Shown in pieces: positions 15,377 to 59,325 of a DNA stretch of 64,000 bases. The position numbers and the translations under genes were made by a program. Every line of letters starts with the position of its first letter. Position 1 is the stretch's first letter. The DNA is from Limnoperna fortunei. Taxonomy: Eukaryota; Mollusca; Bivalvia; Mytilida; Modiolidae. The stretch lies in the NCBI GenBank assembly GCA_944474755.1, contig OX104112.1, positions 56,525,176-56,589,175 on the forward strand, written 5' to 3'. Under the pieces are notes generated by a model. The model was given only the letters and a program-made list of their open reading frames with translations, searched no databases and was not told the origin of the DNA.

Positions 15377-15377
15377 T

Positions 15378-32188: not shown

Positions 32189-32740
32189 AATGTGTTGGGA
32201 TGCCAAGACAGAAGTCACCCAAAATCCCCATAGTATTGCAGTCGATTCAGGACACTGAAATGTACCTACACTTCAAATTTCATTAAAATCCGACAATGTT
32301 GAAAATTTGACGCGTTTTTGGTGGCCATTTTGAAACCCACTATTCAAAAAAAAAATTCCGAATGTGCATTAATTCTTCCTCCACATTTTTTTTTTTGCAA
32401 TCGGAGCACGTTAACTAATTATACACGTTTTTGAGGCCATTTTCAAACGCGTCGTCCGAAAAAAATTATAAGGTCGAATTACTAAAATCTACCTCCATAC
32501 CGAATTTCGTTGAAATCGGACCAAGGGAAAATTTTTGCCATTTGTGGGTGGTTGTGGTCAAGTGGCGGCCATTTTTTAATTGGCAACCATTATCAAAACT
32601 CTTTCTATTGACTGCTCCCCTCCATATGTCGATCTACAACTGTGCCAAGTTTCATTTGATTCTATTAAGTCGTCTCTCAGAAATGTGTCGGACAAGTTCA
32701 CGATCTAGAAAAAGTGGAAACCGAAATAATAATTATAATT
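32189..32740 (+). mobile_element. N element a (body only)
   Basis: The head tgtgttgggatgccaagac is a slightly mutated hairpin. The body runs to ccgaaataataattataatt, where G element b starts. No matching N tail follows directly; the only unassigned N tail is the cut one at 59,292. Confidence 0.75.
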
Positions 32741-34667
32741 AAAATTTACGTTTCCCGAAACGTTGAAGTCGCCTCCCGTTCCGCACTTTTGACCGAGTAG
32801 AGGGAACTAAAAGTCAAGAGCACAACTTCATAACATGAGCTTTCAGTTGGCCAAGTTTCATTTCGATCGGTTAAAAGATGAGCGAGAAAACGAGCAAACT
32901 TTAAAACGGCCGCCATTTTGAAACCGGAAGTCGGACAAAAAAATTTTTTTGCAAAAATGCTCAGGATAGTTAGCTGTATCAGTATACCAATTTTCATTGA
33001 AATTGCTCTGGCCATAACTGAGATCTGACAACGGCCGCCATTTTGTAAAACTTTAAAACGGCCGCCATTTTGAAACCGGAAGTCGGACAAAAATTTTGAA
33101 AATAGTGGCACACTCAGGGTATCATAAGCTACCTGTATACCAAATTTCGTTTAAATCGGATGACGTTTAAATTTTTACAGTTTTAGGGGGGTGGTGTTCG
33201 GATGGCGGCCATTTTGAAATGTCGGCCGCGTCAAATTTTTTTTTGCAAAAATGCTTGGGATAGGGAGCTGTATCAGTATACCAATTTTCATTGAAATTGC
33301 TTTAGCAATTACTGAGATCTGACAACGGCCGTCATTTTTTTTCAACGGCGGCCATTTTGAAAATGGCGGCCATCTTGAAAATTTCAAAAGTGGATTGCAC
33401 AACTTCAGGTCACCCTTATTAAGTTCCCAAAGTTTCATTTCGATCGGTTAAAAGATGAGCGAGAAAACGAGCGGACAAGATTGCGAGGGGAAAAAGGAAA
33501 ACATAAGAAATATGAAAATAATAATAATAATAATAACAAGTGCTGATTGTGATTGCAAGCAAGTCACAAAAAAATCCCCTCCCGTGCCCACTTTTGTCAC
33601 AATTCGGACAACTTTTCAATTTTCGCACTTTGGCGGCCATTTTGAATATGGCGGCCATCTTGGACTTTGGCAGCCATCTTGGATTTGTTCGACATGTTGT
33701 TCGTAATATCAATATTGACCTAAATGCCAATTTTTGTTGAAATCAGACAACTTTTCAATATTCGCACTTTGGCAGCCATTTTGAATATGACAGCCATCTT
33801 GGATTTGTTTGAAAGTGTCGCCATGTTGTTCGTAATATCAATATTGACCTAAATGCCAATTTTCGTTGAAATCGGACAACTTTTCAATTTTCGCACTTTG
33901 GCGGCCATTTTGAATATGGCGGCCATCTTGGACTTTGGCGGCCATCTTGGATTTGTTCAAACATGTCACCATGTTGTTCGTAATATCAATATTCACCTAA
34001 ATGCCAATTTTCGTTGAAATCGGACAACTTTTCAATTTTCGCACTTTGGAGCCCATTTTGAATATGGCGGCCATCTTGGACTTTGGCGGCCATCTTTGAT
34101 TTGTTCGAACATGTCACCATGTTGTTCGTAATATCAATATTGACCTAAATGCCAATTTTCGTTGAAATCGGACAACTTTTCAATTTTCGCACTTTGGCGG
34201 CCATTTTGAATATGGTGGCCATCTTGGATTTTTCGGAAAATGGTCCCATATTGTCCGGGACCTTAATATTGACCTATAAACCTATTTTGGTTCATATCCA
34301 TATTGTTTGTGATTTTTTATGATTAATTTTGTATTTTTTTCAAATTCAAAATGGCCGCCAATCCAAGATGGCCGCCATTTTCAAAATTTCGAAATCGGAA
34401 ACAACATTTCCTAGTGGTGACCTATCTTTCTGGTAAGTTTCATTGACCTATGTCTTTTCGTCTTCGAGAAATCCTACGGACAAAGTTAGGTCCAGAAGAA
34501 GAAGAAGAAGAAGAAGAAGAAGAAGAAGAAGAAGAAGAATAATAATAATAATAAGAAACGGTGCAAAAACAATAAATCCCCGACACTTCGTGGTCGGGGA
34601 TTTAATAATAATAAGAAACGGAGTAAAAACAATAAGTCGCCCGACACTTCGTGGTCGGCGACTTAAT
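32741..34667 (+). mobile_element. G element b, interrupted by X element c
   Basis: The head and body occupy 32,741-33,536. X element c sits in its (AAT)n tract. Its own tail resumes at 34,606 with hairpin 34,634-34,664 (aagtcgcccgac/gtcggcgactt). Confidence 0.85.
33537..34604 (+). mobile_element. X element c
   Basis: The head is caagtgctgattgtgattgc with AAATCCCC about 30 bp in. The body has five tandem units of about 148 bp (gttgttcgtaatatcaatat ... ggcggccattttgaatatgg), then (AAG)n/(AAT)n, AAGAAACGGTGCAAAAAC and hairpin 34,572-34,604 (taaatccccgac/gtcggggattta). Confidence 0.9.
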
Positions 34668-34670
34668 AAT

Positions 34671-35149
34671 TTAACATGATTATGATCTTATGGATCATAA
34701 CTGGCTCCCAAACGACCCCCGTGGACACTTGAGTTCAGACATCAATTCACAGCAACTTTATCTGCCAGAAAACCAAGTTTCGTGCAAATCGGAGCATTTT
34801 CCAATTTTGTCGGTCATCTTCGATTCAAAATGGCTTCCATAAAAAGTCGACATGTGCGTCATATGGTACGGTATAACATACTCTACTTATATTCCAATTT
34901 TCAGCGAAATCCGTTAACTTTTGGATTTTTATGGATTTATTTTCATTTTCAAAATGGCCGCCATTTCAAGATGGCGGCCAATTTCACCAATGCACCACTT
35001 CAAGTCATGACCTATTTTTGGGTGAAGTTTCATATTGATCCACTTTACGGTCTCCGAGAAAACGGAAAAAAAATAATAATAATAAGAAGAAGAAGAAGAA
35101 ACGGAGCAAAAACAATATGTCTCCCAAATTTTCGTTTGGGAGCCATAAT
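34671..35149 (+). mobile_element. M element d
   Basis: The head ttaacatgattatgatctta is a hairpin with ggatcataa, followed by TGGCTCCCAAACGA. It is short and uninterrupted. The tail hairpin is at 35,117-35,146, and its right arm tcgtttgggagcca is the exact complement of that head word. Confidence 0.9.
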
Positions 35150-35150
35150 T

Positions 35151-35709
35151 AAAAATAATGTGTTGGGATGCCAACACAGAAGTCGCCCAAAATCCCCATG
35201 GATAGTATTGCATTCCACTCAGGACATTGAAATGTACCTACATATCAAATTTCGTTAAAATCGGACAACGTTGAAAATTTGACGCGTGTTTGGCGGCTAT
35301 TTTGAAACCCACGGTCCAAAAAAAATTCCGAATGTGGAGTTCCACTCGGGACACTTAAATCTACCTCCACACCAAAATTTTTTTGGAATCGCATCACGTT
35401 AAATTTAATCGAGATCGGTTAACGTTGAAAATTATACACGTTTTTCGCCACCATTTTGACACGCGCCATCGGAAAAAAATTTCAAAGGTAGCGGGAAAAA
35501 TATTTCCCATTTTGGATGGGTGTTGTCAAGTGGCGGCCATTTTGAATTGGCTGCCATTATCAAAATTCTGACTATTGACTGCACACCTCTATATGTCGAT
35601 CTACAACTGCGCCAGGTTTCATTTGATTCTATTAAAGTGTCTCTGAGAAATGCGTCGGATAAGTTCACGATCTAGAAAAAGGAGAAACCGGAATAATAAT
35701 AATAATAAT
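35151..35709 (+). mobile_element. N element e (body only)
   Basis: It has an intact head (tgtgttgggatgccaacaca, then AAGTCGCCCAAAA) and a body ending at gaaaccggaataataataat. The next N head follows directly, and no tail of its own is seen. Confidence 0.8.
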
Positions 35710-35710
35710 T

Positions 35711-36298
35711 AAAAATAATGTGATGTGTTCGGTTTCCAACACAGAAGTCGCCCAAAATACGCATGGATAGTATTGCGTTCCACTCAGGATATTAAAATGA
35801 ACCTACACATCAAATTTCATTAAAATCAGACAACGTTTCACATTTGACGCGTGTTTGGCGGCCATATTGAAACGCCAGGTGAAAAAAAATTCCGAATTTG
35901 GATTTCCACTCGGGACTCTTAAAACCACCTCCACACCAAATTTTGTTGCAATCAAAGAACATTAAATGTCATCGAGATCGGATTACGTTGAAAGTTATAC
36001 ACGTTTTTAGTGGCTATTTTGAAACCCGACGTCGGAAAAAATTTTTAAAGGTAGCGTTTCACTAGAAATCCTAACCTCTACCTCCATACCAAATTTCGTT
36101 GAAATCGGACCACGGGAAAATTTTCCCCATTTTTGGGTGGGTGGCGGCCATTATCAAAATTCTGACTATTGACTGCACCCCTCAATATGTCGATCTACAA
36201 CTGTGCCAAGTTTCATTCGATTCTATTAATGCGTCTCTGAGAAATTTGTCGGACAAGTTCATGATCTAGAAAAAGTGGAAACCGAAATAATAATAATA
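35711..36298 (+). mobile_element. N element f (body only)
   Basis: The head has a rearranged hairpin (tgatgtgttcggtttccaac) followed by AAGTCGCCCAAAA. The body ends in (AAT)n where X element g inserted. The (AAG)n at 37,360-37,377 may be the start of its tail, which LINE-C interrupts. Confidence 0.75.
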
Positions 36299-36299
36299 A

Positions 36300-37358
36300 C
36301 AAGTGCTGATTGTGATTGCAAGCAAGTCACAAAAAAATCCCCTCCCGTGCCCACTTTTGTCACAATTCGGACAACTTTTCAATTTTCGCACTTTGGCGGC
36401 CATTTTGAATATGGCGGCCATCTTGGACTTTGGCAGCCATCTTGGATTTGTTCGACATGTTGTTCGTAATATCAATATTGACCTAAATGCCAATTTTTGT
36501 TGAAATCAGACAACTTTTCAATATTCGCACTTTGGCAGCCATTTTGAATATGACAGCCATCTTGGATTTGTTTGAAAGTGTCGCCATGTTGTTCGTAATA
36601 TCAATATTGACCTAAATGCCAATTTTCGTTGAAATCGGACAACTTTTCAATTTTCGCACTTTGGCGGCCATTTTGAATATGGCGGCCATCTTGGACTTTG
36701 GCGGCCATCTTGGATTTGTTCAAACATGTCACCATGTTGTTCGTAATATCAATATTCACCTAAATGCCAATTTTCGTTGAAATCGGACAACTTTTCAATT
36801 TTCGCACTTTGGAGCCCATTTTGAATATGGCGGCCATCTTGGACTTTGGCGGCCATCTTTGATTTGTTCGAACATGTCACCATGTTGTTCGTAATATCAA
36901 TATTGACCTAAATGCCAATTTTCGTTGAAATCGGACAACTTTTCAATTTTCGCACTTTGGCGGCCATTTTGAATATGGTGGCCATCTTGGATTTTTCGGA
37001 AAATGGTCCCATATTGTCCGGGACCTTAATATTGACCTATAAACCTATTTTGGTTCATATCCATATTGTTTGTGATTTTTTATGATTAATTTTGTATTTT
37101 TTTCAAATTCAAAATGGCCGCCAATCCAAGATGGCCGCCATTTTCAAAATTTCGAAATCGGAAACAACATTTCCTAGTGGTGACCTATCTTTCTGGTAAG
37201 TTTCATTGACCTATGTCTTTTCGTCTTCGAGAAATCCTACGGACAAAGTTAGGTCCAGAAGAAGAAGAAGAAGAAGAAGAAGAAGAAGAAGAATAATAAT
37301 AATAATAAGAAACGGTGCAAAAACAATAAATCCCCGACACTTCGTGGTCGGGGATTTA
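36300..37358 (+). mobile_element. X element g
   Basis: It is nearly identical to X element c and shares its private variants (ggagcccattttg, tttgaaagtgtcgcc). The tail hairpin is 37,327-37,358. Confidence 0.9.
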
Positions 37359-37818
37359 ATAAGAAGAAGAAGAAGAATTTTGAATTTTCAATACCCTTTA
37401 TTAAATAAAACAATCAATCACAGTTTAACAAGGTATCAAAAATTCATATTATATAAAATATGAACCTAACTATACATTATTTGACAAGCTACATTAACAA
37501 TTTTGAATATACATATGAATAATAACTTTAAATCCAAAATCATGTGAAAATACAATAGAAAAATAAAAGACTTTGTCCAACTGATCAAAGTCAGCTTAAA
37601 CTGATACAAGCCAGTTTAAACTTTAATAATTAATTTATTACCTACCTAACATTGAACCTAAAAACACCTATAAAAGACTTTGTCATAATGATCAAAGTCA
37701 ACATGGAATGGTACACGCCAGTCCATGTTTTAACCTTTAACACATCGCGGTTTACAATATATAAACACGACAAGAAAATAAAAATCAAAAATACAAATAC
37801 AATTAAAATAACTTACCA

Positions 37819-38994
37819 TTAAATATTAACAAAAAGCTTGTCAATAGAAATAAAACACAAAACATTATTAAAACACCAAAAGTCTGAAAAAGAATCAACA
37901 TTATGTACAAACCTATAATAGGCAAACTCAATTGCCAGCCGGGCGCGAATACGCGACCTGAACTCCTGTAGTGCGTCTGTTTGTCCACCGCCAGTCTTCA
38001 GGTGTTACAATGTGACGTAGGTGGCCATCTTTGCTTGTGTGGCAATCCATTGGTACAGTCGTCTTGGGATCATGTACCGCTTGCTCCATCGTTGCGTGTT
38101 GGTACATTCTCCCAAAACGAATGTTCCATTCTTCGTTATCATTGGCTGTCTTGTAGTCTCTGGACAGCCGACCCTGGATGAAGTGTGGTCGGCTGGTACT
38201 GGAATCTCTGGACAGCTCATCCTAGTTGACGGTGGATCAGCTGGAGTCGATCTCCTAACTGGACAGCTGTCTGATGATGTCGTGTAGACAGCTGCAGGAG
38301 ATCGATTTGCACTGACCAGATAAGATGTTTCATCAGTTCCTGTGAAGGTTGAAGGTCCAAAAATAAATGATTGCATCGAACCTTCATCATTATCGTTAAA
38401 TTTTGTGGCAATACTGTAAAAATAATTTAATGATTGTTTGATTCTCGGACAAGAAACGAAAATATGTAATATATCCTCTTGTACACAACAAGCAGGACAA
38501 ACATCAGATGACCAGCTTTATAATAAAATTTGCCAGTTGAAATAGCACCATAAAGTATTCTCCAGTTAAGGTCACCTTCATGCATGCTATGAGGATATTC
38601 ATAAACATGACTAAATATAACATTAGTGGGGACATTTGATTGCAACATATTATTCTAGGGGGACAACAATTTTTTAGCACGGGAACTATGAACATTTTGA
38701 ATAACAGATAATAAATAAATCATTTTCTTAGGATATTTATCAAGAACAACGCCCTTACTTGATTCAGGAGTATTGTCAATATCTAATTTAAAAATATATT
38801 GGTGAACAACACCAATATCAATATCACTATTTAGAAAACCATCTATCAAATTATTCCACTCTGGGGGAAAAGACGACCACAGTAAATCCAAGTGTTGTTG
38901 GATACAGCGTTCAGAACGCCAACAAGATCTGCTGCAGTAAATTTTCGTTTTAGACTGGTATCAAACAGATCTTTAACTTTAGTCATACCAGAAA
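37819..38994 (-). pseudogene. LINE-C ORF2 C-terminal domain
   Basis: It begins with 'WSSFPPEWNNLIDG' (38,891-38,655) and continues through frame changes to CPACCVQEDILHIFVSCP (about 38,490), the C-x2-C...H..C motif. It ends in EFRSRIRARLAIEFAYYRF, WCFNNVLCFISIDKL and a TAA at 37,819-37,821. Between TSYLV and TQAKMATYVT there is an extra stretch of about 90 codons, open in frame, that includes a 16-17 residue tandem repeat with 'SCPEIPVPAD' words (38,157-38,275). Confidence 0.75.
38157..38275 (-). repeat. In-frame 48-51 bp minisatellite inside LINE-C ORF2
   Basis: The word ggacagc recurs at 38,162, 38,210 and 38,261. The intervening sequences are similar (ggtcggctggtactggaat versus ggatcagctggagtcgat). 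On the minus strand this encodes repeated CPE..PAD-type segments without breaking the local frame. It lies in an apparent insertion relative to related LINE C-termini. Confidence 0.6.
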
Positions 38995-40113
38995 TTACAA
39001 ATTTTCTAAATAAAAAGGTTCATCAGTTTTAGGGTTAATTAATGCAGGATTAAAGAATAAAGGTTCTTCTATAATGTCTGCAACTGAGGTATCATCTATT
39101 TTTATTCTAGATGATTCAAAATATTTCCAGGCTTTTATAAAATCTTGATAAAAGCTTGGAATGTTAGTATACTGAAAATCCCCATCAAGTAATAACAACT
39201 GAACATCATAATTCAAATTAGAAACAGTAGACAAAAAATATTTACAAAAATAATAACAAGTGTGAACTTCTTCACCATTCATTAATGTTAAAGATCTATA
39301 CATAAATTGAATTCGAAAATCACGAATTCTAGATAAAATATGAACCAAGCCCTGTCCTACAGTACATACAGGAAGATACAACATTTCTTTGGAAACCCAA
39401 TGTTTTCCTTGCCATAAAAATTCTACAAATTTATTTTGAATGGGATTTATAATTTCATCGGGCACGACCACTGAATTTAGTCGATGCCACAATTTTGACG
39501 CGGAAAGTAAATTAATTACAAGCGTTCGTCCTCTAAGTGACAAACCACGAGCAAATGGTTTCCACCTGTCAAGTTTGATAGTAATACCCTCCTCCATCCC
39601 TTGCCAATTTTGTTTATAAAAATCACGAGTGTTTCCAACAAAAGTCCCTAAAACTTTAAGACCTTTATTATTCCATTTGAGACCAAGTGGACAATTATTT
39701 CTTTTTTTCCAACTTCCCACCCACAAACCTTCGGACTTTTGTAAATTAATTTTTGAATTTGAAGCTTTCTGGTTTATATCTAACCAGAAAGACAACCTAT
39801 CAAAATCAGAGTCCTGTGTTAACAGAGTATCCAAATCATCTGCATATGCAGATAAACAACTTTTCTTACCATCAGACAATGGAAGTTCAAGGCCTGATAG
39901 GCCGTCTTTTGACCTTATTTTGTGTAAAAGAGGTTCAAGGCAAATAGCATATAATTGACCAGAAAAGGAACATCCTTGTCGTATACCTCGTTTAAATTGA
40001 AAAGGGGAAGATAACGAATTATTAATTTTCAGTAAGCTATGTACATCTGTATAAATAGTTTTTATACATGATATAAAATAATCGCCAAAACCGAAGGCTT
40101 CTAATGTCTTCAT
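38995..40113 (-). pseudogene. LINE-C reverse transcriptase palm and thumb (YADD)
   Basis: This piece of 372 residues contains FKRGIRQGCSFSGQLYAICL, SCLSAYADDLDTLL (catalytic YADD intact), NSKINLQKSEGLWVG and LKVLGTFVG, then the thumb region with 'NKFVEFLWQGKHWVSKEM'. It overlaps the preceding fingers frame by one base, marking a frameshift at about 40,113-40,150 beside the first catalytic aspartate. Confidence 0.85.
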
Positions 40114-40616
40114 TAAATAACCATGATGAACACGATCAAAGGCCTTCTCTTGGTCAAGGGAAACAATAGCAAGGGGATATTTTCCCGATTAGCATAAGTA
40201 GCATCAGAAATAAAACGAATATTGTCACTGATATGACGACCGGGAACAAAATAACTTTGATCGATATGTAATATATCTGGTAGAACGGTACGAAGTCTTA
40301 GCGAGAAAGCTCTCGTAAATATTTTATAATGACAACAGAGAAGAGACACTGGTCTCCAGTTTTTCAACAAACTACTGTCACATCTCTTTGGAATCATCGT
40401 TAGAACGGCTCTTCTGCACGAAAGTGCAAGTCTGTTTTCTTCAATAGAAGAAACAAAAACTTCGTACATATCTTTCCCAATGACGTTCCAAAAGGTTTTG
40501 TAAAATTCACTAGGCAGCCCATCAATAACAGGGGACTTATTATTATTCATTTTTAAAACAGCAAAGGACAATTTATCATAACTTATAACACTATCTAATG
40601 CTTTTTTGGATGTCAC
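40113..40616 (-). pseudogene. LINE-C reverse transcriptase fingers
   Basis: It has NNNKSPVIDGLPSEFYKTFW, LKNWRPVSLLCCHYKIFTRA and IDQSYFVPGRHISDNIRF, the ordered N-terminal RT blocks of L1/Tx1-type elements. After 'ENIPLL' the correct frame shifts to read SLDQEKAFDRVHHGYL, the block with the first catalytic aspartate. Confidence 0.85.
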
Positions 40617-40956
40617 TTATTTTAGGAAGGTCTTTCAAAATTTCATTTTGACAACCTTCATCAACAGGGTCGGGGCTATACAAATCGGAGTAAAAATTTC
40701 GGGCAAGGGTTCTTATTTCCTGATCTGAATCAGTTACACTTTCATCAGGCAAGGTTAAATGGGATAATAATTTCTTTGTACCACGTTTCTTTTCAAGATC
40801 AAAGAAATATTTTGTAGGTTTATCTGAATCATTAACATATTTGAATCTTGAACGAACCCAAGCACCACGGGCCTGGATTCGTTCAAGTTCAGATAACTGA
40901 TGTTGCTTCTCAATTAAAATGACATTGAGATCATGGTTTGTTGCAATATTTGATTT
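40617..40956 (-). pseudogene. LINE-C linker between endonuclease and RT
   Basis: The minus strand gives GAWVRSRFKYVNDSDKPTKY, FFDLEKKRGTKKLL and FYSDLYSPDP, the conserved segment that precedes RT in Tx1/L1-type ORF2. It is open but in a frame different from the neighbouring pieces. Confidence 0.7.
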
Positions 40957-41541
40957 TCATAAATCAATATCGGATTGTAAACTATCAAATTTACGTTTAA
41001 AATCAAAATTCTTTTTAATAGAAAATTCTTGCGAAAGTTCCTTTATTTTGTATTTTCCACGATCCCACCAATCTTGAATACACTTTAACTCAGATTTTTG
41101 TAATCGCCAGGAAAGCCAAAAACTATTTACCATGTCAACATACAATTTATCATCTAAAAGAGATGTATTTAAACACCAGTAAGCACTCTTGTGTTTACTT
41201 GGTATTTCTTTAAAATAAGCACGAACGTAATCATGATCAGAATATGAACATTGTTTTATTTCTGAAGATCGAATAAACTGACTATAATGTTTGGAGATAT
41301 AAATTCGATCAAGTCTTGCGGCGACGCCGTCATTTCTCGACCAAGAATATATTTTATTATACGGATGAATATTGCGAAACGTATCAATAAATTTGAAACG
41401 TTTAACAATATTTTTAAATTCATTACAAGAATAGGGGTGGGGTTCAACATCTCCTGTCCTACATTTATCTAAAGAAGGATTGGTAGTACAATTGAAATCA
41501 CCTCCAAGAAATATTGGATAGGAAGAATCAAGTTGATTCAA
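40957..41541 (-). pseudogene. LINE-C endonuclease, C-terminal part
   Basis: It contains FLGGDFNCTT (DFN motif), DTFRNIHP..KIYSWSR, ARLDRIYIS and CSYSDHDYV, with the terminal SDH catalytic histidine. These are the later APE-endonuclease motifs in the right order and with all key residues present. Confidence 0.85.
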
Positions 41542-41932
41542 ATGGTGTTTTCAAAAATTCTAGGTTTTCTTTGGGACAGGTGGGGGGATAGACATTCAAC
41601 AAATAAACAGTTTGCTCATGTAATTTGATAGTAGCATGTAAAAAATGTAAAATGCGACCGGGTAATATAACTTTATGATCTAGAATAGTATATTCTAAAT
41701 TATTCGAAAAACATATCGCTAATCCAGCAGAAATAGTTGAGAGATTAGAGAACACTATTTCTCCTCTCCATATCATTTTCCATATACCTTCATCAGAAGG
41801 AATGGTATGAGCATCTTGAAGAAAAACTAAACCTGCATTTAATTTAGATTTTAAAGAATCTAATATAAAATATCTTTTAAATGAGTCACGACAACCTTGA
41901 GTATTCAAGGAAAATAATGAAAAACTGGACAT
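41528..41932 (-). pseudogene. LINE-C endonuclease, N-terminal part and ORF2 start
   Basis: The start is placed at the ATG at 41,930-41,932, just before SSFSLFSLNTQGCRDSFKR (motif I Asn). A longer frame upstream starts only at TTG. It continues with GLVFLQDAH (Q-D in place of Q-E at the metal-site motif) and SAGLAICFSNN. The frame shifts at about 41,535, overlapping the next piece. Confidence 0.8.
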
Positions 41933-42068
41933 TACAATTGTAATTGTAATACAAATACAGAACAAAGAAGCATAATTAAGTATACAATAGATTTATTTTA
42001 TCTCTAAGCATAAGTTTTCAGGTACATGTAGGTTTTTAATTTCTTGATCAATTTATTTAAACGGGCTT

Positions 42069-43413: not shown

Positions 43414-43688
43414 TGTCCTCTTAATTAAATTGAGATATCCGTATTACATGACAAAGAATTGCCCGAGGCAACTACAGTCGACAACTGAGTAGATTTTCCC
43501 ATGACCACACTGGAAAACGAAGGCGACGCCATCTTTAAACCAAAAATTAAACCAATAAACAAAAACACAATCCACCAAAATTCTCGGCAATCCGAGAATA
43601 AATCACGAAAATAACCCCACAAAATGAAAGAACTTCTTCTGAATATAACAATAAAAATTTTGACGAACCACAATACAAAATAACCAAT

Positions 43689-43780
43689 GTTTCATTCGAT
43701 TCTATTAAGGCGTATTTGAGAAATATGTTGGACAAGTTCATGGTCTAGGAGAAGTGGAAAGCGAAATAATAATAATAATA
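43689..43780 (+). mobile_element. N element 3' body fragment
   Basis: gtttcattcgattctattaa through gtggaaagcgaaataataat matches the last 90 bp of other N bodies. The head and most of the body are missing on the LINE-C side. Confidence 0.8.
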
Positions 43781-43785
43781 ATTAA

Positions 43786-47369: not shown

Positions 47370-47370
47370 A

Positions 47371-47986
47371 ATAATGTGTTGGGATGCCAACACAGAAGTC
47401 GCCCTATTCCCCATGGATAGTATTGCGTTCCACTCAGGACATAAAGATGTACCTAAATATCAAATTTAATAAAAATCGGACAACGTTTAAAATTTGACGC
47501 GTTTTTGGCGGCCATCTTGAAACGCCAGGTGGAAAAAAATTTCCGAATTTGGATTTCCACTCAGAACACTTAAATCCACCTCCACACCAAATTTTGTTGA
47601 AATCGGAGCACGTTAAATGTAATCGAGATCGGATAACGTTGAAAATTATACACGTTTTAAACGGCCATTTTGAAACCCGAAGTCGGACAAAAAATTGAAA
47701 GGTAGCATTTCACTCCAAATACTAACCTCTACCTCCATACCAAATTTCTTCGAAATGGGACCACGGGAAAATTTTTGCTATTTTTGGGTGGGTGTCGTCA
47801 ATTGGCGGCCATTTTGAAATGGCGTCCATTATTAAAATTCTGACTATTGACTGCACCCCTCAATATGTCGATCTACAACTTTGCCAAGTTTCATTCGATT
47901 CTATTAAGGCGTATTTGAGAAATGTGTCGGACAAGTTCATGGTCTAGGAGAAGTGGAAACCGAAATAATAATAATAATTAAAAATT
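47371..47986 (+). mobile_element. N element l (body only)
   Basis: It starts at the hairpin head directly after the G tail. The body ends in (AAT)n, where G element m starts. Confidence 0.8.
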
Positions 47987-49676: not shown

Positions 49677-50290
49677 AATAATGTGTTGGGATGCCAACAC
49701 AGAAGTCGCCCAAAATCCCCATGGATAGTATTGCGTTCCACTCAGGACATTGAAATGAACCTACATATCAAATTTCATTAAAATCGGACAACGTTTAAAA
49801 TTTCACCCGTTTTTGGCCGCCATTTTGGAAACCACGGTCGGGAAAAAATTTCGAATGCAGAGTTCCACTTGGGATACTTAAATCTACCTCTACACCAAAT
49901 TTCGTTGCAATCGGAGCACGTTAAATGTCATCGGAGCACGTTAAATGTCATCGAGATCGCATAATGTTGAAAACCTTACACGTTTTTGGCGGCCATTTTG
50001 AAACCGGAAGTCCGAGAAAAAATTTAAAGGTAGCGTTTCACTCCAAATACTAACATCTACCTCCGTACCAAATTTCGTTGAATTTGGACCACGGGAAAAT
50101 TTTTGCCATTTTTGGGTGGGTGTCGTCAAGTGGCGGCCATTTTGAAATGGCGGCCATTATCAAAATTCTGACTATTGACTGCACCCCTCCATATGTTCAT
50201 CTACAACTGTGCCAAGTTTCATTTGATTCTATTAAGGGGTCTCTGAGAAACTTGTCGGACAAGTTCACGATCTAGAAAAAGGAGAAACCG

Positions 50291-50321
<31 letters not shown>

Positions 50322-50322
50322 T

Positions 50323-52164
50323 AAAATTTACGTTTCCCGAAACGTTGAAGTCGCCTCCCGTTCCGCACTTTTGACCGAGTAGAGGGAACTAAAAGTCAAG
50401 AGCACAACTTCATAACATGAGCTTTCAGTTGGCCAAGTTTCATTTCGATCGGTTAAAAGATGAGCGAGAAAACGAGCAAACTTTAAAACGGCCGCCATTT
50501 TGAAACCGGAAGTCGGACAAAAAATTTTTTTTGCAAAAATGCTCAGGATAGTTAGCTGTATCAGTATACCAATTTTCATTGAAATTGCTCTGGCCATAAC
50601 TGAGATCTGACAACGGCCGCCATTTTGTAAAACTTTAAAACGGCCGCCATTTTGAAACCGGAAGTCGGACAAAACATTTTTAAATAGTGGCACACTAAGG
50701 GTGCCATAAGCTACCTGTATACCAAATTTCGTCTAAATCGGATGACGTTTAAATTTTTATTTTTAGGGGGGTGGTGTTCGGATGGCGGCCATTTTGAAAT
50801 GTCGGCCGCGTCAAATTTTTTTTTGCAAAAATGCTCGGGATAGTTAGCTGTACCAGTATACCAATTTTCATTGAAATTGCTTTGGCAATTACTGAGATCT
50901 GACAACGGCCGTCATTTTTTTCAACGGCGGCCATTTTGAAAATGGCGGCCATTTTGAAAATTTCAAAAATGGATTGCACAACTTCAGGTCACCCTTAACA
51001 TGTTCCCAAAGTTTCATCTTGATTGGACATTGCATCTCTGAGAAAATGTGCGGACAACATTGCGAGGGGAAAACATAAGAAATATGAAAATAATAATAAT
51101 AACTAGTGCTGATTGTGTTGGGATGCCAACACAGAATGTCTCCCAAACGAACCCCCATTGCCACTATATTTTTGTGCATGTTGAAAACCCCCAAATAGAC
51201 ATGATATTCTTAGTTTGTGGATTAAAATCTACCTACATATCAAATGTCGTTGCAATCGGACTAAGTTGACGTTTGGGGGGAGTGTGGTGAAACGGCTGCA
51301 ATCACAAAATAGTGTCATTCGCATCCAATTTTTTGGCAAAAATGCTCAGGATAGTTAGCTGTATCAGTATACCAATTTTCATTGAAATTGCTCTGGCCAT
51401 TACTGAGATCTTACAATGGCCGCCATTTTTTAAAACTTTAAAACGGCCACCATTTTGAAACCGGAAGTCGGACAAAAATTTTTTTTTGCAAAAATGCTCA
51501 GGATAGTTAGCTGTATCAGTATACCAATTTTCATTGAAATTGCTCTGGCCATAACTGAGATCTTACAACGGCCACCATTTTGTAAAACTTTAAAACGGCC
51601 GCCATTTTGAAACCGGAAGTCGGACAAAAATTTTGAAAATAGTGGCACACTCAGGGTATCATAATCTAGCTGTGTACCAAATTTCGTCGAAATTGGATGA
51701 AGTTTAAATTTTTGTATTTTTAGGGGGGTGGTGTTCGGATGGCGGCCATTTTGAAATGTCGTTCGCGTCCATTTTTTTTTGGCAAAAATGCTCAGGATAG
51801 TTAGCTGTATCAGTATACCAATTTTCATTGAAATTGCTCTGGCAATTACTGAGATCTGACAACGGTCGCCATTTTTTTATACGGCGGCCATTTTTAAAAT
51901 GGCGTCAATTTAAAAAATTTCAAAAGTGGATTGCACAATTTCAGGTCACCCTTAACATGTTCCCAAAGTTTCATCTTGATTGGACATTTCGTCTCAGAGA
52001 AAATGTGCGGACAAGATTGAACGGAAAGAAAAAAGAAAGAAGAAGAATAATAATAAGAAACCGGACAAAAACAATATGTCTCCCAAAACTTCGTTTGGGA
52101 GACATAATAATAAGAAACGGAGTAAAAACAATAAGTCGCCCGACACTTCGTGGTCGGCGACTTA
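50323..52164 (+). mobile_element. G element p, interrupted by O element q
   Basis: The body is 50,323-51,102, with a variant end (attggacattgcatctctg) in place of the usual 'cgatcggttaaaagatgag'. Its tail hairpin is 52,133-52,163, after the O tail. Confidence 0.85.
51103..52107 (+). mobile_element. O element q
   Basis: The head ctagtgctgattgtgttggg mixes X-like (gtgctgattgtg) and N-like (gtgttgggatgccaacac) words, followed by ATGTCTCCCAAACGAA. The body is mostly G-like blocks. The tail hairpin 52,076-52,105 has the right arm tcgtttgggagacat, the exact complement of the head word. It is the only O copy in the window and looks recombinant. Confidence 0.85.
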
Positions 52165-52251
52165 ATAATAATAATAATAATAATAAGAAACGGTGCAAAA
52201 ACAATAAGTCGCCAAAACTTCGTTTTGGGCGACTTAATAATAATAATTAAA

Positions 52252-52774
52252 ATTATGTGTTGGGATGCCAACACAGAAGTCGCCCAAAATCCCCATGGAT
52301 AGTATTGCGTTCCACTCAGGACATTGAAATGAACCTGCATATCAAATTTCATTAAAATCGGACAACGTTTAAAATTTCACCCGTTTTTGGCCGCCATTTT
52401 GGAAACCACGGTGGAGAAAAATTTCGAATATAGATTTCCACTCGGGACACTTAAATCTACCTCCAAACAAATTTCATTGCAATCGGAGCACGTTTAATGT
52501 CATCGAGATCGCATAACGTTGAAAATTATACACGTTTATGGCGGCCATTTTGAAACTGGAAGTCCGAGAAAAATTTAAAGGTAGCGTTTCACTCGAAATA
52601 CTAACATCTACCTCCATACCAAATTTCGTTGAATTCTGACTACGGGAAAATTTTTGTCATTTTTGGGTGGGTGTCGTCAAGTGGCGACCATTTTGAAATG
52701 GCGGCCATTATCAAAATTCTGACTATTGACTGCATTTGATTCTATTAAGGCGTCTCTAGAAAAAGGAGAAACCG

Positions 52775-52816
<42 letters not shown>

Positions 52817-52865
52817 GAAACGGTGCAAAAACAATAAGTCGCCAAAACTTCGTTTTGGGCGACTT
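52252..52865 (+). mobile_element. N element r, complete and uninterrupted
   Basis: About 614 bp with head hairpin, AAGTCGCCCAAAA word, body, (AAT)n, AAGAAACGGTGCAAAAAC and hairpin 52,836-52,865. The right arm gttttgggcgactt pairs with the head word. It gives the reference structure for family N, although a short stretch near its 3' body end is deleted relative to the other copies. Confidence 0.9.
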
Positions 52866-53846
52866 AATAATAATTTAACATGATTATGATCTTATGGATC
52901 ATAACTGGCTCCCAAACGACCCCCGTGGACACTGGAGTTCAGACATCCATTCACAGCAACTTTATCTACCAGGAAACCAAGTTTCAAGCAAATCGGAGCA
53001 TTTTTCAGTTTTGTCGGCCATCTTGGATTCAAAATGGCTGCCATAGAAAGTCCACATGTGCGTCATATGGTGCGGTATAACAGACTCTACTTGTATTCCA
53101 ATTTTCATTGAAATCCGTTAACTGTTGGTTTTTTAAGGATTTATTTTCATTTTCAAAATGGCCGCCATTTCAAGATGGCTGTCGTGTTCAAATTCAACTT
53201 TTGATGACTAGCATCTTATCGCGACATGGTAATCTACCTAAAAACCAAGTAACATGCGATTCCGAGCATTTTGAATGTTTGGCGGCCATCTTGGATTCAA
53301 AATGGCCGCCATAAAAAGTCAACATGTGCGTCATATGGTGCGTTATAACATACTCTACTTATATTCCAATTTTAAGCGAAATCCGTTAACTTTTGGATTT
53401 TTAAGGATTTATTTTCATTTTCGAAATGGCCGCCATTTTAAGATGGCCGCCATGTTCAAATTCCAATTTTGATGACTAACATCTGACCGCATCATGGTAA
53501 TCTACCTAAAAACCAGGTTTCGTGTGATTCCGAGCATTTTGAATTTTTGGCGGCCATCTTGGATTCAAAATGGCGCCAACAAAAAGACAACATGTGCGTC
53601 GCATGGTGCGGTATAACATACCCTACTTATATTCCAATTTTCATTGAAATCCGTAAACTTTTGCATTTTTAAGGATTTTTTTCGTTTTCAAAATGGCCGC
53701 CAATTTCAAAATTTTAAAACTTGAAGGCACCACTTCAAGTCATGACCTATTTTTGGGTAAAGTTTCATAATGATCAAATTTACGGTCTCCGAGAAAACGG
53801 TCGGACAAAATTTTGGCGGAAAGGAAAAGAAAAAATAATAATAATA

Positions 53847-55529
53847 AAATTTACGTTTCCCGAAACGTTGAAGTCGCCTCCCGTTCCGCACTTTTGACCG
53901 AGTAGAGGGAACTAAAAGTCAAGAGCACAACTTCATAACATGAGCTTTCAGTTGGCCAAGTTTCATTTCGATCGGTTAAAAGATGAGCGAGAAAACGAGC
54001 AAACTTTAAAACGGCCGCCATTTTGAAACCGGAAGTCGGACAAAAAATTTTTTTTGCAAAAATGCTCAGGATAGTTAGCTGTATCAGTATACCAATTTTC
54101 ATTGAAATTGCTCTGGCCATAACTGAGATCTGACAACGGCCGCCATTTTGTAAAACTTTAAAACGGCCGCCATTTTGAAACCGGAAGTCGGACAAAAATT
54201 TTGAAAATAGTGGCACACTCAGGGTATCATAAGCTACCTGTATACCAAATTTCGTTTAAATCGGATGACGTTTAAATTTTTACAGTTTTAGGGGGGTGGT
54301 GTTCGGATGGCGGCCATTTTGAAATGTCGGCCGCGTCAAATTTTTTTTTGCAAAAATGCTCGGGATAGTTAGCTGTACCAGTTTACCAATTTTCATTGAA
54401 ATTGCTTTGGCAATTACTGAGATCTGACAACGGCCGTCATTTTTTTCAACGGCGGCCATTTTGAAAATGGCGGCCATTTTGAAAATTTCAAAAGTGGATT
54501 GCACAACTTCAGGTCACCCTTAACATGTTCCCAAAGTTTCATTTCGATCGGTTAAAAGATGAGCGAGAAAACGAGCGGACAACATTGCGAGGGGAAAAAG
54601 GAAAACATAATAATAATTAAAATTTACGTTTCCCGAAACGTTGAAGTCGCCTCCCGTTCCGCACTTTTGACCGAGTAGAGGGAACTAAAAGTCAAGAGCA
54701 CAACTTCATAACATGAGCTTTCAGTTGGCCAAGTTTCATTTCGATCGGTTAAAAGATGAGCGAGAAAACGAGCAAACTTTAAAACGGCCGCCATTTTGAA
54801 ACCGGAAGTCGGACAAAAAATTTTTTTTTGCAAAAATGCTCAGGATAGTTAGCTGTATCAGTATACCAATTTTCATTGAAATTGCTCTGGCCATAACTGA
54901 GATCTGACAACGGCCGCCATTTTGTAAAACTTTAAAACGGCCGCCATTTTGAAACCGGAAGTCGGACAAAAATTTTGAAAATAGTGGCACACTCAGGGTA
55001 TCATAAGCTACCTGTATACCAAATTTCGTTTAAATCGGATGACGTTTAAATTTTTACAGTTTTAGGGGGGTGGTGTTCGGATGGCGGCCATTTTGAAATG
55101 TCGGCCGCGTCAAATTTTTTTTGGCAAAAATGCTCGGGATAGGGAGCTGTATCAGTATACCAATTTTCATTGAAATTGCTTTGGCAATTACTGAGATCTG
55201 ACAACGGCCGTCATTTTTTTTCAACGGCGGCCATTTTGAAAATGGCGGCCATTTTGAAAATTTCAAAAGTGGATTGCACAACTTCAGGTCACCCTTATTA
55301 TGTTCCCAAAGATTCATTTCGATCGGTTAAAAGATGAGCGAGAAAACGAGCGGACAACATTGCGAGGGGAAAAAGGAAAACATAAGAAATATGAAAATAA
55401 TAATAATAATAATAATAAGAAACGGAGTAAAAACAATAAGTCGCCCGACACTTCGTGGTCGGCGACTTAATAATAATAAGAAACGGAGTAAAAACAATAA
55501 GTCGCCCGACACTTCGTGGTCGGCGACTT
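53847..55529 (+). mobile_element. G element t, interrupted by G element u
   Basis: The body is 53,847-54,618. The second of two consecutive G tails (hairpin 55,499-55,529) is assigned to it. Confidence 0.85.
54619..55468 (+). mobile_element. G element u (inside t)
   Basis: A complete G copy with tail hairpin 55,439-55,468. Confidence 0.9.
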
Positions 55530-55531
55530 AA

Positions 55532-57613
55532 CAAGTGCTGATTGTGATTGCAAGCAAGTCACAAAAAAATCCCCTCCCGTGCCCACTTTTGTCACAATTC
55601 GGACAACTTTTCAATTTTCGCACTTTGGCGGCCATTTTGAATATGGCGGCCATCTTGGACTTTGGCAGCCATCTTGGATTTGTTCGACATGTTGTTCGTA
55701 ATATCAATATTGACCTAAATGCCAATTTTTGTTGAAATCAGACAACTTTTCAATATTCGCACTTTGGCAGCCATTTTGAATATGACAGCCATCTTGGATT
55801 TGTTCGAAAGTGTCGCCATGTTGTTCGTAATATCAATATTGACCTAAATGCCAATTTTCGTTGAAATCGGACAACTTTTCAATTTTCGCACTTTGGCGGC
55901 CATTTTGAATATGGCGGCCATCTTGGACTTTGGCGGCCATCTTGGATTTGTTCAAACATGTCACCATGTTGTTCGTAATATCAATATTCACCTAAATGCC
56001 AATTTTCGTTGAAATCGGACAACTTTTCAATTTTCGCACTTTGGAGGCCATTTTGAATATGGCGGCCATCTTTGATTTGTTCGAACATGTCACCATTTTG
56101 TTCGTAATATCAATATTGACCTAAATGCCAATTTTCGTTGAAATCGGACAACTTTTCAATTTTCGCACTTTGGCGGCCATTTTGAATATGGTGGCCATCT
56201 TGGATTTTTCGGAAAATGGTCCCATATTGTCCGGGACCTTAATATTGACCTATAAACCTATTTTGGTTCATATCCATATTGTTTGTGATTTTTTATGATT
56301 AATTTTGTATTTTTTTCAAATTCAAAATGGCCACCAATCCAAGATGGCCGCCATTTTCAAAATTTCGAAATCGGAAACAACATTTCCTAGTGGTGACCTA
56401 TCTTTCTGGTAAGTTTCATTGACCTATGTCTTTTCGTCTTCGAGAAATCCTACGGACAAAGTTAGGTCCAGAAGAAGAAGAAGAAGAAGAAGAAGAAGAA
56501 GAAGAAGAATAACAAGTGCTGATTGTGATTGCAAGCAAGTCACAAAAAAATCCCCTCCCGTGCCCACTTTTGTCACAATTCGGACAACTTTTCAATTTTC
56601 GCACTTTGGCGGCCATTTTGAATATGGCGGCCATCTTGGACTTTGGCAGCCATCTTGGATTTGTTCGACATGTTGTTCGTAATATCAATATTGACCTAAA
56701 TGCCAATTTTTGTTGAAATCAGACAACTTTTCAATATTCGCACTTTGGCAGCCATTTTGAATATGACAGCCATCTTGGATTTGTTCGAAAGTGTCGCCAT
56801 GTTGTTCGTAATATCAATATTGACCTAAATGCCAATTTTCGTTGAAATCGGACAACTTTTCAATTTTCGCACTTTGGCGGCCATTTTGAATATGGCGGCC
56901 ATCTTGGACTTTGGCGGCCATCTTGGATTTGTTCAAACATGTCACCATGTTGTTCGTAATATCAATATTCACCTAAATGCCAATTTTCGTTGAAATCGGA
57001 CAACTTTTCAATTTTCGCACTTTGGAGGCCATTTTGAATATGGCGGCCATCTTGGACTTTGGCGGCCATCTTTGATTTGTTCGAACATGTCACCATGTTG
57101 TTCGTAATATCAATATTGACCTAAATGCCAATTTTCGTTGAAATCGGACAACTTTTCAATTTTCGCACTTTGGCGGCCATTTTGAATATGGTGGCCATCT
57201 TGGATTTTTCGGAAAATGGTCCCATATTGTCCGGGACCTTAATATTGACCTATAAACCTATTTTGGTTCATATCCATATTGTTTGTGATTTTTTATGATT
57301 AATTTTGTATTTTTTTCAAATTCAAAATGGCCGCCAATCCAAGATGGCCGCCATTTTCAAAATTTCGAAATCGGAAACAACATTTCCTAGTGGTGACCTA
57401 TCTTTCTGGTAAGTTTCATTGACCTATGTCTTTTCGTCTTCGAGAAATCCTACGGACAAAGTTAGGTCCGGAAGAAGAAGAAGAATAATAATAATAATAA
57501 GAAACGGTGCAAAAACAATAAATCCCCGACACTTCGTGGTCGGGGATTTAATAATAATAATAAGAAACGGTGCAAAAACAATAAATCCCCGACACTTCGT
57601 GGTCGGGGATTTA
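55532..57613 (+). mobile_element. X element v, interrupted by X element w
   Basis: The body 55,532-56,512 has a 21-bp deletion in the fourth unit (near 56,060) relative to other copies. The second X tail (hairpin 57,592-57,613) is assigned to it. Confidence 0.85.
56513..57550 (+). mobile_element. X element w (inside v)
   Basis: A complete X copy with tail hairpin 57,519-57,550 and a short (AAG)n. Confidence 0.9.
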
Positions 57614-57691
57614 ATAATAATAATAATAATAATAATAAGAAACGGAGCAAAAACAATATGTCTCCAAACTTTCGTTTGGGAGCCATAATAA

Positions 57692-58392
57692 TTAAACATG
57701 ATTATGATCTTATGGATCATAACTGGCTCCCAAACTCCCCCCGTTGACCGTCAGGCTCAGCCATCCATTCACACCAACTTTTTCTTCCAGGAAACCAAGT
57801 TTCGTGCAGATCGGAGCATTCTTCAATTTTGTCGGCCATCTTGGATTCAAAATGGCCGCCATAAAATGTCAACATGTGTGTCATATGGTGCGGTATAACA
57901 TACTCTACTTATATTCCAATTTTCATCTAAATCTGTTTACTTTTGAATTTTTAAGGATTTGTTTTCGTTTTCAAAATGGCCGCCATTTTAAGATGGCCGC
58001 CGTGTTCAAATTCAACTTTTGATGACTAATATCTGATCGCAACATGGTAATCTACCTAAAAACTAAGTTTCATGCGATTCCGACCATTTTGAATTTTTGG
58101 CGGCCATCTTGGATTCAAAATGGCACCAAAAAAGATCAACATGTGCGTCATATGGTGCGGTATAACATATCCTACTTATATTGCAATTTTCGTCGAAATC
58201 CAAATGGCCGCCATTTCAAGATGGCCGCCAATTTAAAAATTTTAAACTTGACAGGCACAACTTCACATCATGACCTATTTTTTGTGAAGTTTCATTTGGA
58301 TCCAATTTACGGTCTTCGACAAAACAGCCGGACAAAAGTCTGGCGGAAAGTGGAAGAAAAAAAAATAATAATAACTTCCGTTTGGGAGCCAT
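57692..58392 (+). mobile_element. M element x with damaged tail
   Basis: The head hairpin attatgatcttatggatcat is followed by TGGCTCCCAAAC and a body similar to M s. Only the right arm of the 3' hairpin (cttccgtttgggagccat, 58,374-58,392) remains; the constant tail word and left arm are deleted. Confidence 0.8.
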
Positions 58393-58420
58393 AATAATAA
58401 TAATAATAATAATAATAATT

Positions 58421-59277
58421 AAAATTTACGTTTCCCGAAACGTTGAAGTCGCCTCCCGTTCCGCACTTTTGACCGAGTAGAGGGAACTAAAAGTCAAGAG
58501 CACAACTTCATAACATGAGCTTTCAGTTGGCCAAGTTTCATTTCGATCGGTTAAAAGATGAGCGAGAAAACGAGCAAACTTTAAAACGGCCGCCATTTTG
58601 AAACCGGAAGTCGAACAAAAATTTTTTTTTGCAAAAATGCTCAGGATAGTTAGCTGTATCAGTATACCAATTTTCATTGAAATTGCTCTGGCCATAACTG
58701 AGATCTGACAACGGCCGCCATTTTGTAAAACTTTAAAACGGCCGCCATTTTGAAACCGGAAGTCGGACAAAAATTTTGAAAATAGTGGCACACTCAGGGT
58801 ATCATAAGCTACCTGTATACCAAATTTCGTTTAAATCGGATGACGTTTAAATTTTTACAGTTTTAGGGGGGTGGTGTTCGGATGGCGGCCATTTTGAAAT
58901 GTCGGCCGCGTCAAATTTTTTTTTGCAAAAATGCTCGGGATAGGGAGCTGTATCAGTATACCAATTTTCATTGAAATTGCTTTGGCAATTACTGAGATCT
59001 GACAACGGCCGTCATTTTTTTTTCAACGGCGGCCATTTTGAAAATGGCGGCCATTTTGAAAATTTCAAAAGTGGATTGCACAACTTCAGGTCACCCTTAT
59101 TATGTTCCCAAAGTTTCATTTCGATCGGTTAAAAGATGAGCGAGAAAACGAGCGGACAACATTGCGAGGGGAAAAAGGAAAACATAAGAAATATGAAAAT
59201 AATAATAATAATAATAATAATAATAAGAAACGGAGTAAAAACAATAAGTCGCCCGACACTTCGTGGTCGGCGACTTA
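58421..59277 (+). mobile_element. G element y
   Basis: An uninterrupted G copy with tail hairpin 59,246-59,276, the last complete element of the array. Confidence 0.9.
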
Positions 59278-59280
59278 ATA

Positions 59281-59325
59281 AGAAGAAGAAGAAACGGTGC
59301 AAAAACAATAAGTCGCCAAAACTTA
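59281..59325 (+). mobile_element. N-type tail, cut in the hairpin: right edge of the array
   Basis: (AAG)n and AAACGGTGCAAAAACAATAA are followed by the left arm agtcgccaaaactt; the right arm is absent. It would close an earlier tail-less N element. The array ends here against unrelated AT-rich sequence. Confidence 0.8.

Follow-up and report, generated by a model that had tools for sequence, protein, structure and literature searches.

Probable nesting of Helentron-derived HINEs in one another's (TTA)n tracts over 27 kb of the Limnoperna fortunei genome

In the window analysed here (the whole 64,000-nucleotide stretch of Limnoperna fortunei DNA), the ends of several families of small repeats follow one another like brackets over 27 kb, which raises the question of what process could have ordered them. 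Pattern location and reading by eye of positions 32189-59325 identified 25 marks of one type of end ("heads", opening a bracket) and 21 of the other ("tails", closing it), in the following order by family letter:

First part: N( G( X( X) G) M( M) N( N( X( X), then a LINE and an N remnant
Middle part: X( X( X) X) N( G( G) N( G( G( G) G) N( G( O( O) G) N)
Last part: N( N) M( G( G( G) G) X( X( X) X) M) M( M) G( G) N)

The true orientation of these elements is that of the minus strand, so that the "tail" corresponds to the 5' module while the "head" is the 3' end; the preliminary description had drawn this polarity back to front, and it is fixed by the OTU-Rep-PIF1-endonuclease reading frame of an autonomous Helentron (see below). 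The components are listed here, assigned from pattern and flanks except where another basis is given in brackets.

19399..20243, minus, G, un-nested and outside the nest; reference copy with body, (TTA)n tract and 5' module uninterrupted (pattern)
32189..32744, minus, N, outermost, 3' end and body, 5' module not found (head motif; 40 bases on the left without an element end)
32745..34664, minus, G, encloses X 33537
33537..34603, minus, X, nested in G
34673..35146, minus, M, short
35159..35721, minus, N, 5' module not found (pattern)
35722..36299, minus, N within the TAA tract of N 35159, 5' module not found (mark list and flanks)
36300..37357, minus, X in the tract of N
37380..43687, minus, LINE with zinc knuckle and reverse transcriptase in two frames, 3' end abutting an (AAG)n run (boundaries by eye)
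43688..43785, minus, N remnant adjoining the LINE (read by eye)
43786..45906, minus, outer X, encloses X 44777
44777..45849, minus, inner X
45912..46533, minus, N, 5' module not found (pattern)
46534..47369, minus, G in the tract of N
47375..47990, minus, N, by strict order owner of the cut 5' module at 59282, otherwise 5' module not found (pattern)
47991..49676, minus, outer G, encloses G 48772
48772..49621, minus, inner G (2.8% from its outer partner, 0.13% from G 32745)
49682..52235, minus, N, encloses G 50327 and O
50327..52163, minus, G, encloses O
51103..52105, minus, O, internally deleted relative of the autonomous Helentron (identity to the autonomous copy)
52256..52865, minus, N without insertion; body, tract and 5' module uninterrupted
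52877..57686, minus, M, encloses a G-in-G and an X-in-X pair
53850..55529, minus, outer G
54623..55468, minus, inner G
55532..57612, minus, outer X with a 19-bp deletion
56513..57549, minus, inner X
57695..58392, minus, M, 5' module reduced to part of the hairpin (mark list and flanks)
58425..59276, minus, G
59282..59325, minus, N 5' module cut mid-hairpin; right edge of the nest (pattern, by eye)

The bracket pattern in the window is real. Each of the 21 tails closes the head most recently opened (last in, first out), as against a mean of 5.57 and a maximum of 14 matches when tail labels were permuted (n = 2000) and a mean of 4.87 and a maximum of 12 when all marks were shuffled. The mark list for this test was compiled by hand from pattern hits, and includes diverged N heads at 32189, 35720, and 45912 as well as a truncated M tail at 58379 and a truncated N tail at 59291. 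A fixed automatic caller, which misses four N heads and both truncated tails, found 22 heads and 20 tails in the whole window, the solitary G at 19399 included; all 20 closers matched, none were mismatched, and two heads stayed unclosed. The preliminary description had claimed that every G, X, M, and O head is closed in this order, and that is borne out for all 18 (eight G, six X, three M, and one O), although only the 3' part of the third M tail is left (58379-58392); the coordinates it quoted for example brackets agree to within about 20 bases. Its account of family N was likewise recovered: two of the seven heads have intact closing tails, and a third tail breaks off at about 59325. A further N copy, the eighth, lies at 43688-43785 and lacks a head. 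Five N heads and this remnant share one cut 5' module between them; the missing N 5' modules were presumably lost from the right edge or never inserted. That collapsed or scrambled repeats in the assembly produced the pattern is scarcely credible, as a scramble would not put 21 of 21 tails in order, nested copies mostly differ from one another (two X copies are identical), and the same architecture is found at unlinked places.

The elements themselves are HINEs, small and non-coding non-autonomous Helentrons, a group of rolling-circle transposons. Read on the minus strand, each 5' module carries a subterminal repeat (subTIR) and its complement as a hairpin, then the leader TATTGTTTTTRCWCCGTTTC (slightly altered in family O), and is followed by the HINE-type microsatellite, here (TTA)n; beyond this tract lie a body of diverged repeats, the 3' subTIR, and a palindrome close to the 3' end. 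Body repeats are satellite-like in X (129-148 bp) and M (268 bp). Head and tail subTIRs are complementary over 8-17 exact bases in seven of seven families, with a family's own partner the longest match or tied for it. The 5' hairpins of G (two modules taken together), X, M, N, and O fold better than shuffles, with z-scores from −3.9 to −6.1. The palindrome between the 3' subTIR and the end is present in the same five families; its folding is clear in N (z −3.4), weak in M and O (−1.8 and −1.7), and no better than shuffles in G and X (0.0 and −0.5). An Rfam search of the window returned no RNA family, indicating that the hairpins match no catalogued RNA at curated thresholds. When viral and prokaryotic collections were scanned for exact patterns, three scans had no hits, and the two contigs that a fourth returned contained no head or tail and were dismissed as chance matches. 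A first look at the 1.34-Gb assembly yielded candidates, most of them unscored, for G (1715), N (2156), and X (330).

Elsewhere in the same genome, an autonomous Helentron carries the ends of window family O together with the tract. Its frame of 2292 amino acids contains OTU, Helitron_like_N, PIF1, and Exo_endo_phos domains. The O element in the window is 97.7% identical to the autonomous copy over 172 bp and 93.5% over 552 bp; similarity between G and the autonomous Helentron is confined to the body (95% over 501 bp), and among G, X, M, N, O, S, and P, a partner with matching ends is established for O. One type of partner presumably moves all of the families. In one autonomous copy the tract is occupied by G elements. 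At the autonomous copy designated D, four G heads face three G tails, and the O closer there was therefore assigned by family and not by strict order.

This anatomy closely parallels that of HINE/DINE-1 elements as described in PMC4067079, which reports subterminal inverted repeats, an inverted repeat beside the 5' one, a microsatellite, a 3' palindrome, a TT target, and an autonomous partner with Rep, helicase, and endonuclease; clusters and tandem arrays are also described there. The window elements share the ends, hairpin, microsatellite, palindrome, target, and, for family O, the partner; unlike in that account, the microsatellite here is a favored landing site, resulting in deep nests on one strand. 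Cg_HINE of the Pacific oyster, in the description given in PMC7492417, similarly has a left flank of subTIR, inverted repeat, and microsatellite, a satellite-like center, a right flank of subTIR and palindrome, and a T-rich target. Its microsatellites usually have a four-base motif, GTCY for example, and that description links no autonomous partner to it, in contrast with the TTA tract and the family O partner found here. A MITE- or SINE-like identity, first drawn from the hairpin, was overturned by these HINE papers and by the Helentron partner; a cut-and-paste MITE was also rejected, the repeats being subterminal and the palindrome lying outside them at one end.

The reading that we favor, at a probability of roughly 0.87, is that HINEs mobilized by the rolling-circle transposases of Helentrons built up the region as a nest, by inserting in one another's (TTA)n tracts. 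The preliminary description had proposed repeated insertion at one internal position, and the flanks support this: read by eye, 14 of the 25 heads in the window are placed after another element's body end and TAA tract, 10 after another element's tail in a like tract, and one after DNA without an element end; moreover, an O tract with no insertion in it is seen where a second autonomous copy should have its 5' end. Among 20 X sites elsewhere, hand-picked from a longer list of X candidates, 11 follow a body end and TAA (nine of a recognized family, two by resemblance), three follow another tail, and six follow other DNA. All 20 of these X heads are preceded by AA, which reads TT on the element strand, and all 15 visible X tails are followed by it; over the whole window, AA also comes after 21 of 21 hairpin ends. 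The AA at both sides may be the element's own or a 2-base duplication.

Under the favored mechanism, the transposase would insert new copies at TT, and a (TTA)n tract, as a dense run of TT on one strand, would receive them in one orientation. Strand is uniform for 42 of 42 automatic marks in the window and for 420 of 430 at seven other loci; the presence of TT on only one strand of (TTA)n would explain this single orientation, the cause probably being a need of the Rep protein for TT on one strand. An insertion in the tract would split the older element but leave both of its ends intact. With the tract placed between 5' module and body, insertion there separates intact ends and so yields the bracket pattern; because elements land one inside another in a tract that they themselves carry, the order of ends would record the order of arrival.

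Nested elements, and unequal numbers of 5' and 3' ends, are also reported for Helitrons in maize (PMC3288121) and Fusarium (PMC5148889). Those accounts concern single or inferred cases without a fixed internal landing tract, whereas the cases here are many, use one kind of tract, and are balanced in the window except for N. Insertion into short tandem repeats is likewise a property of MuTAnT, a microsatellite-targeting DNA transposon found in (TA)n (PMC4486113, which also cites Coates 2010 for a Helitron-like element in (GAAA)n of moths); MuTAnT is described as targeting genomic microsatellites, but the target here is carried by the elements and is strand-asymmetric. Nested Helitrons and microsatellite-targeting elements are thus already known, and what is new is that Helentrons nest deeply and in one orientation through a tract that they carry themselves. 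Such nests let the order of insertions be read for a group of rolling-circle transposons about whose mechanism little is known, and they provide a natural setting in which to test whether targeting is strand-specific.

The preliminary description had further held that nesting gives a relative chronology without alignment, and that inner copies should be younger. The first part stands by logic, as nesting yields a relative order of insertion, and divergence fits an "outer older" order between families in the window. Full-length copies differ pairwise by 5.6-16.7% in N, 15.6-18.1% in M, 0.1-5.6% in G, and 0-0.4% in X; the strongly diverged N and M enclose G and X, and none of 14 closed G or X pairs encloses N or M. 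Within family G, divergence lends no such support: in 58 adjacent pairs, divergence from the consensus is higher for the outer copy in 22 and for the inner in 29, with seven ties. An apparent "outer old, inner young" relation for G pairs in the window, obtained with a window-only consensus, was discarded when 140 G copies reversed both pairs and displayed no overall trend.

Divergence also bears on a rival origin of the head and tail runs, in which unequal exchange between TAA tracts, and not insertion, would have produced them as tandem or segmental duplications. Neighboring G copies resemble each other somewhat more than G copies paired at random do (median 1.07% versus 1.61%; median rank of the neighbor 0.31), as duplication would have it, but in only five of 58 pairs does the outer G have its neighbor as closest or joint-closest relative, and in five of 58 the neighbor is among the nearest 5%, a weak test because many copies are near-identical. 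Four self-matches reach 1300 bp in the element region of the window: XX to XX at 98.1%, GG to GG at 97.7%, and two of N+G at 91-92%. Across three neighboring N+G stretches, N differs by 12.4-12.8% and G by 2.5-5.3%, and these stretches were therefore not copied as one unit. Nor can duplication yield a nested order of different families such as N G O O G N, and as the origin of such runs we regard it as very improbable.

Outside the window, duplication is plain: one locus (A_C8) contains 5.7 kb at 99.7% identity with a 2417-bp shift, and another (F_C3) 4.1 kb at 99.3% with a 1198-bp shift. The bracket order is not a universal rule. Among the 233 closers at seven further loci, 152 conform to it, 48 break it, and 33 meet an empty stack; the out-of-order closers occur amid tandem or segmental duplications. 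In a permutation test at six loci, four (A-D) gave higher values than any of the 300 permutations on both counts; the other two (E and F) did not. Reading X runs as tandem duplications from their equal spacing was abandoned, since base changes are mostly private to one of the X copies compared. The four-head X run at L097 resembles a doubled two-body unit, with four heads and two tails and a base change common to bodies 1 and 3; its three tracts are equal in length and unlike in make-up. Given this tract make-up and the mostly private changes among X copies, tandem duplication was kept for L097 only. Nested landing and tandem duplication, each seen at different loci, together suggest a possible route from dispersed transposons to satellite-like arrays.

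An excess of heads could instead be primary and not a result of loss, if rolling-circle concatemers or read-through of 3' ends made the clusters and nested donors emitted one 5' end with several 3' ends, as put forward for the maize and Fusarium elements (PMC3288121; PMC5148889). A unit with two heads, one tail, and exact outer ends exists (L090 with L038), an O 3' end is joined directly to an O 5' module at another locus (C7, L100), and the unclosed N heads could be such units. Concatemers nevertheless predict alternating heads and tails, and the window has four same-family pairs of consecutive tails; we consider this origin unlikely. In a run test set beforehand, heads equal tails in six of 15 runs, tails are fewer in three (heads/tails 5/0, 4/2, and 2/1), one has 3/2 before another head, and five were not resolved.

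Returning to nested insertion, we tentatively suggest, without holding it the likelier case, that Helentrons here carry their own polar landing strip: (TTA)n would attract later copies, force one orientation, and spare both ends, and nests might move as composites, shedding units with new combinations of 5' and 3' ends. If so, successive waves of transposition would be legible in nest order, and nests would give rise to new satellites. The tract between heads is alike in L090, L091, and L098, a recurrence that composite jumps or insertion at one phase could explain.

Family-specific ends were marked in the element nest at 32189-59325, in an assembly of 1,335,373,924 bases and 285 contigs, by pattern search on both strands followed by reading in the sequence. 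The marks comprise 25 heads (G 8, N 7, X 6, M 3, O 1) and 21 tails, the head being the 3' end and the tail the 5' module of a minus-strand element. All 21 tails close the most recently opened head; permutation of tail labels (2000 trials) placed a mean of 5.57 and a maximum of 14 in order, and shuffling of all marks a mean of 4.87 and a maximum of 12. The last-in-first-out nesting reported in the preliminary description is thus borne out, on marks hand-listed from pattern matches that include three diverged N heads and two truncated tails. A fixed automatic caller, which overlooks four N heads and both truncated tails, matched 20/20 closers across the whole window.

The landing sites agree with the accompanying claim of repeated insertion at one internal position: by eye, 14 of the 25 heads come immediately after the body end of another element and TAA, 10 come after a tail belonging to another element, and the outermost is preceded by DNA that shows no element end. 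Among 20 X sites elsewhere, hand-picked from the genome candidate list (the last flanked by neighbouring X copies ~0.4 kb apart), 11 lie behind another such body end and TAA (G 5, M 1, N-like 3, other families by resemblance 2), three behind another tail, and six behind other DNA. In the four cases with a G element outside and a tail or tail leader as the first mark beyond the X tail, that mark is also G (L046 in part, L048, L052, L060). AA stands ahead of all 20 X heads and behind all 15 visible X tails, corresponding to TT on the element strand.

Automatic marks fall on one strand in 42/42 cases in the window and 420/430 at seven other loci, the ten off-strand marks all lying in A_C8, the site of an inverted duplication. 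This duplication (L012-L013; C8:29559427-29561964 / 29565810-29568347) covers 2.5 kb at 99.9% within a G-rich cluster; no other of the eight loci bears marks on both strands. The (TTA)n tract between 5' module and body, (TAA)n on the forward strand, offers TT on just one of its strands; a transposase requiring TT in one direction would therefore insert in a single orientation, which would explain the one-strand arrangement.

Non-autonomous Helentrons (HINEs) have a described anatomy (passages of PMC4067079 and PMC7492417), and the window elements, read on the minus strand, have it: 5' subterminal repeat, its complement, microsatellite, body with satellite-like repeats, 3' subterminal repeat, and 3' palindrome. 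Folding of the 5' hairpins beats shuffled sequences by a wide margin in every one of the five families tested (z −3.9 to −6.1). Of the 3' palindromes, which are short, that of N alone stands clearly apart from shuffles in folding energy (z −3.4; M −1.8, O −1.7, X −0.5, G 0.0). Tails are family-specific, since each of seven families (G, X, M, N, O and, from other loci, S and P) has its own subterminal repeat, with head-tail complementarity of 8 to 17 bases in all seven and the own partner longest or tied for every head.

Searching the genome for Helitron_like_N gave at least 147 matches (150 of 180 candidates scored), one inside cluster D (C9:44445001-44485000). In this cluster, a 2292-aa frame on the minus strand comes after an O-type 3' end at D10544 and carries OTU, DUF6570, Helitron_like_N, PIF1, and Exo_endo_phos domains. 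Because this frame runs from the tail side toward the head side, the tail is the 5' end, reversing the polarity originally assigned. The window O element matches this autonomous copy at 97.7% over 172 bp at the 3' end and 93.5% over 552 bp in the 5' part, and on these matches looks like an internal-deletion relative; a G body is 95.2% identical to the 5' part of the autonomous copy over 501 bp. In the cluster D copy, the tract is occupied by G elements with the O 5' module after them, and strict order is off by one tail (four G heads, three G tails). A second copy on contig C7, also with a 2292-aa frame, was examined only where its two ends were expected: one holds an O 5' module, TTATTATTATT, and body start, all uninterrupted, and the other an O 3' end. 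At the latter, in L100 (positions 60-120; C7:34010921-34011060), an O 3' end is joined directly, head-to-tail, to another O 5' module, a junction that fixes the element ends.

At six further loci (A to F), chosen for many G copies, order and non-crossing counts exceeded all 300 permutations at A, B, C, and D and did not at E and F; with one additional N tail form, 29/31 closers at D keep the order, where 5000 permutations reach 28 at most. The seven loci A to F and H together have 233 closers, of which 152 match and 48 break the order. The other 33 arrive when no head is open, some of them at cut edges; the caller also overlooks mutated ends. A prediction set before the sequences were fetched was that n consecutive heads lead to n tails. 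Among 15 such runs, tails were equal in six and fewer in three, one had three heads and two tails before another head, and five lacked a clear count; in none of the counted runs did tails outnumber heads. Such an excess of heads can arise alike from tail loss, body duplication (L097), or jumps with several 3' ends, as proposed for maize and Fusarium in passages of PMC3288121 and PMC5148889. In the window, five N heads and an N remnant at 43688 have one cut 5' module in common. If these are true nests, the missing N 5' modules should form a run just past the cut module at 59282-59325, and a single truncation at that point could economically account for them; alternatively, these N heads may belong to multi-3'-end units.

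Neighbouring copies may in part be duplicates rather than separate insertions. Loci A to F are rich in tandem and segmental duplications, and G neighbours differ somewhat less than randomly paired G copies (median 1.07% vs 1.61%). However, ranked against all other copies, a G neighbour comes at a median of 0.31, and 5/58 fall in the nearest 5%; most G neighbours appear not to be close sisters. Four self-matches in the window's element region reach 1300 bp, two pairing X doublets and G doublets and two pairing N+G stretches around 45849-51100. In these stretches, however, N differs by 12.4 to 12.8% and G by only 2.5 to 5.3%, as expected of young G elements entering old N elements singly.

Separate insertion would also give a relative order in time, as the preliminary description proposed. 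Full-length window copies differ pairwise by 5.6 to 16.7% in N and 15.6 to 18.1% in M, and by 0.1 to 5.6% in G and 0 to 0.4% in X; N and M enclose G and X, and neither lies inside any of 14 closed G/X pairs. Between families in the window, divergence fits older outer elements. Outside the window, G heads also come after X bodies (L040, L043), so the waves overlap, and among 58 adjacent G pairs the proposed trend toward older outer copies is lacking (outer more diverged 22, inner 29, ties 7; p = 0.40). Divergence from consensus is a poor insertion clock because G copies derive from different subfamilies.

Passages of published work already cover HINEs with microsatellites (PMC4067079, PMC7492417), nested Helitrons and elements with extra termini (PMC3288121, PMC5148889), microsatellite-targeting transposons (PMC4486113), and, in a 2025 review, "shuffled" Helitron loci in oyster (PMC12628747). 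Among the open-licence papers listed, no title or displayed abstract beginning deals with deep one-strand Helentron nesting through the elements' own microsatellite; such nesting is regarded here as new, as a variant of known phenomena.

Other repeats in the window are as follows.
2729-8339: satellite array with periods of 99, 287, and 386 bp, and strong strand asymmetry (GC skew up to 0.39).
10943-17727, minus strand: two LINE copies with 1507 bp in common at 99.9% (12785-14291, 16280-17786), beyond which the two run on into reverse transcriptase halves that differ, as though two distinct back halves had been joined to a single front half.
23090-24329: 167-bp tandem array of 7.5 copies, also with ATGGCCGCC words, in which none of the seven families' ends was called.
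37380-43687: LINE whose 3' end adjoins an (AAG)n run.

A similar LINE 3' end occurs in the (AAG)n tract of 3/20 X sites elsewhere (L056, L066, L072), and these shared positions suggest that the LINE targets (TTC)n. The motif AANATGGCBGCC, which resembles the YY1 site, was counted on either strand: element DNA (32189-59325 without the LINE, 20.8 kb) has 182 occurrences, and 40.4 kb from the rest of the window has one, leaving aside the solitary G element and the array at 23090-24329; the copies are related, hence not independent.
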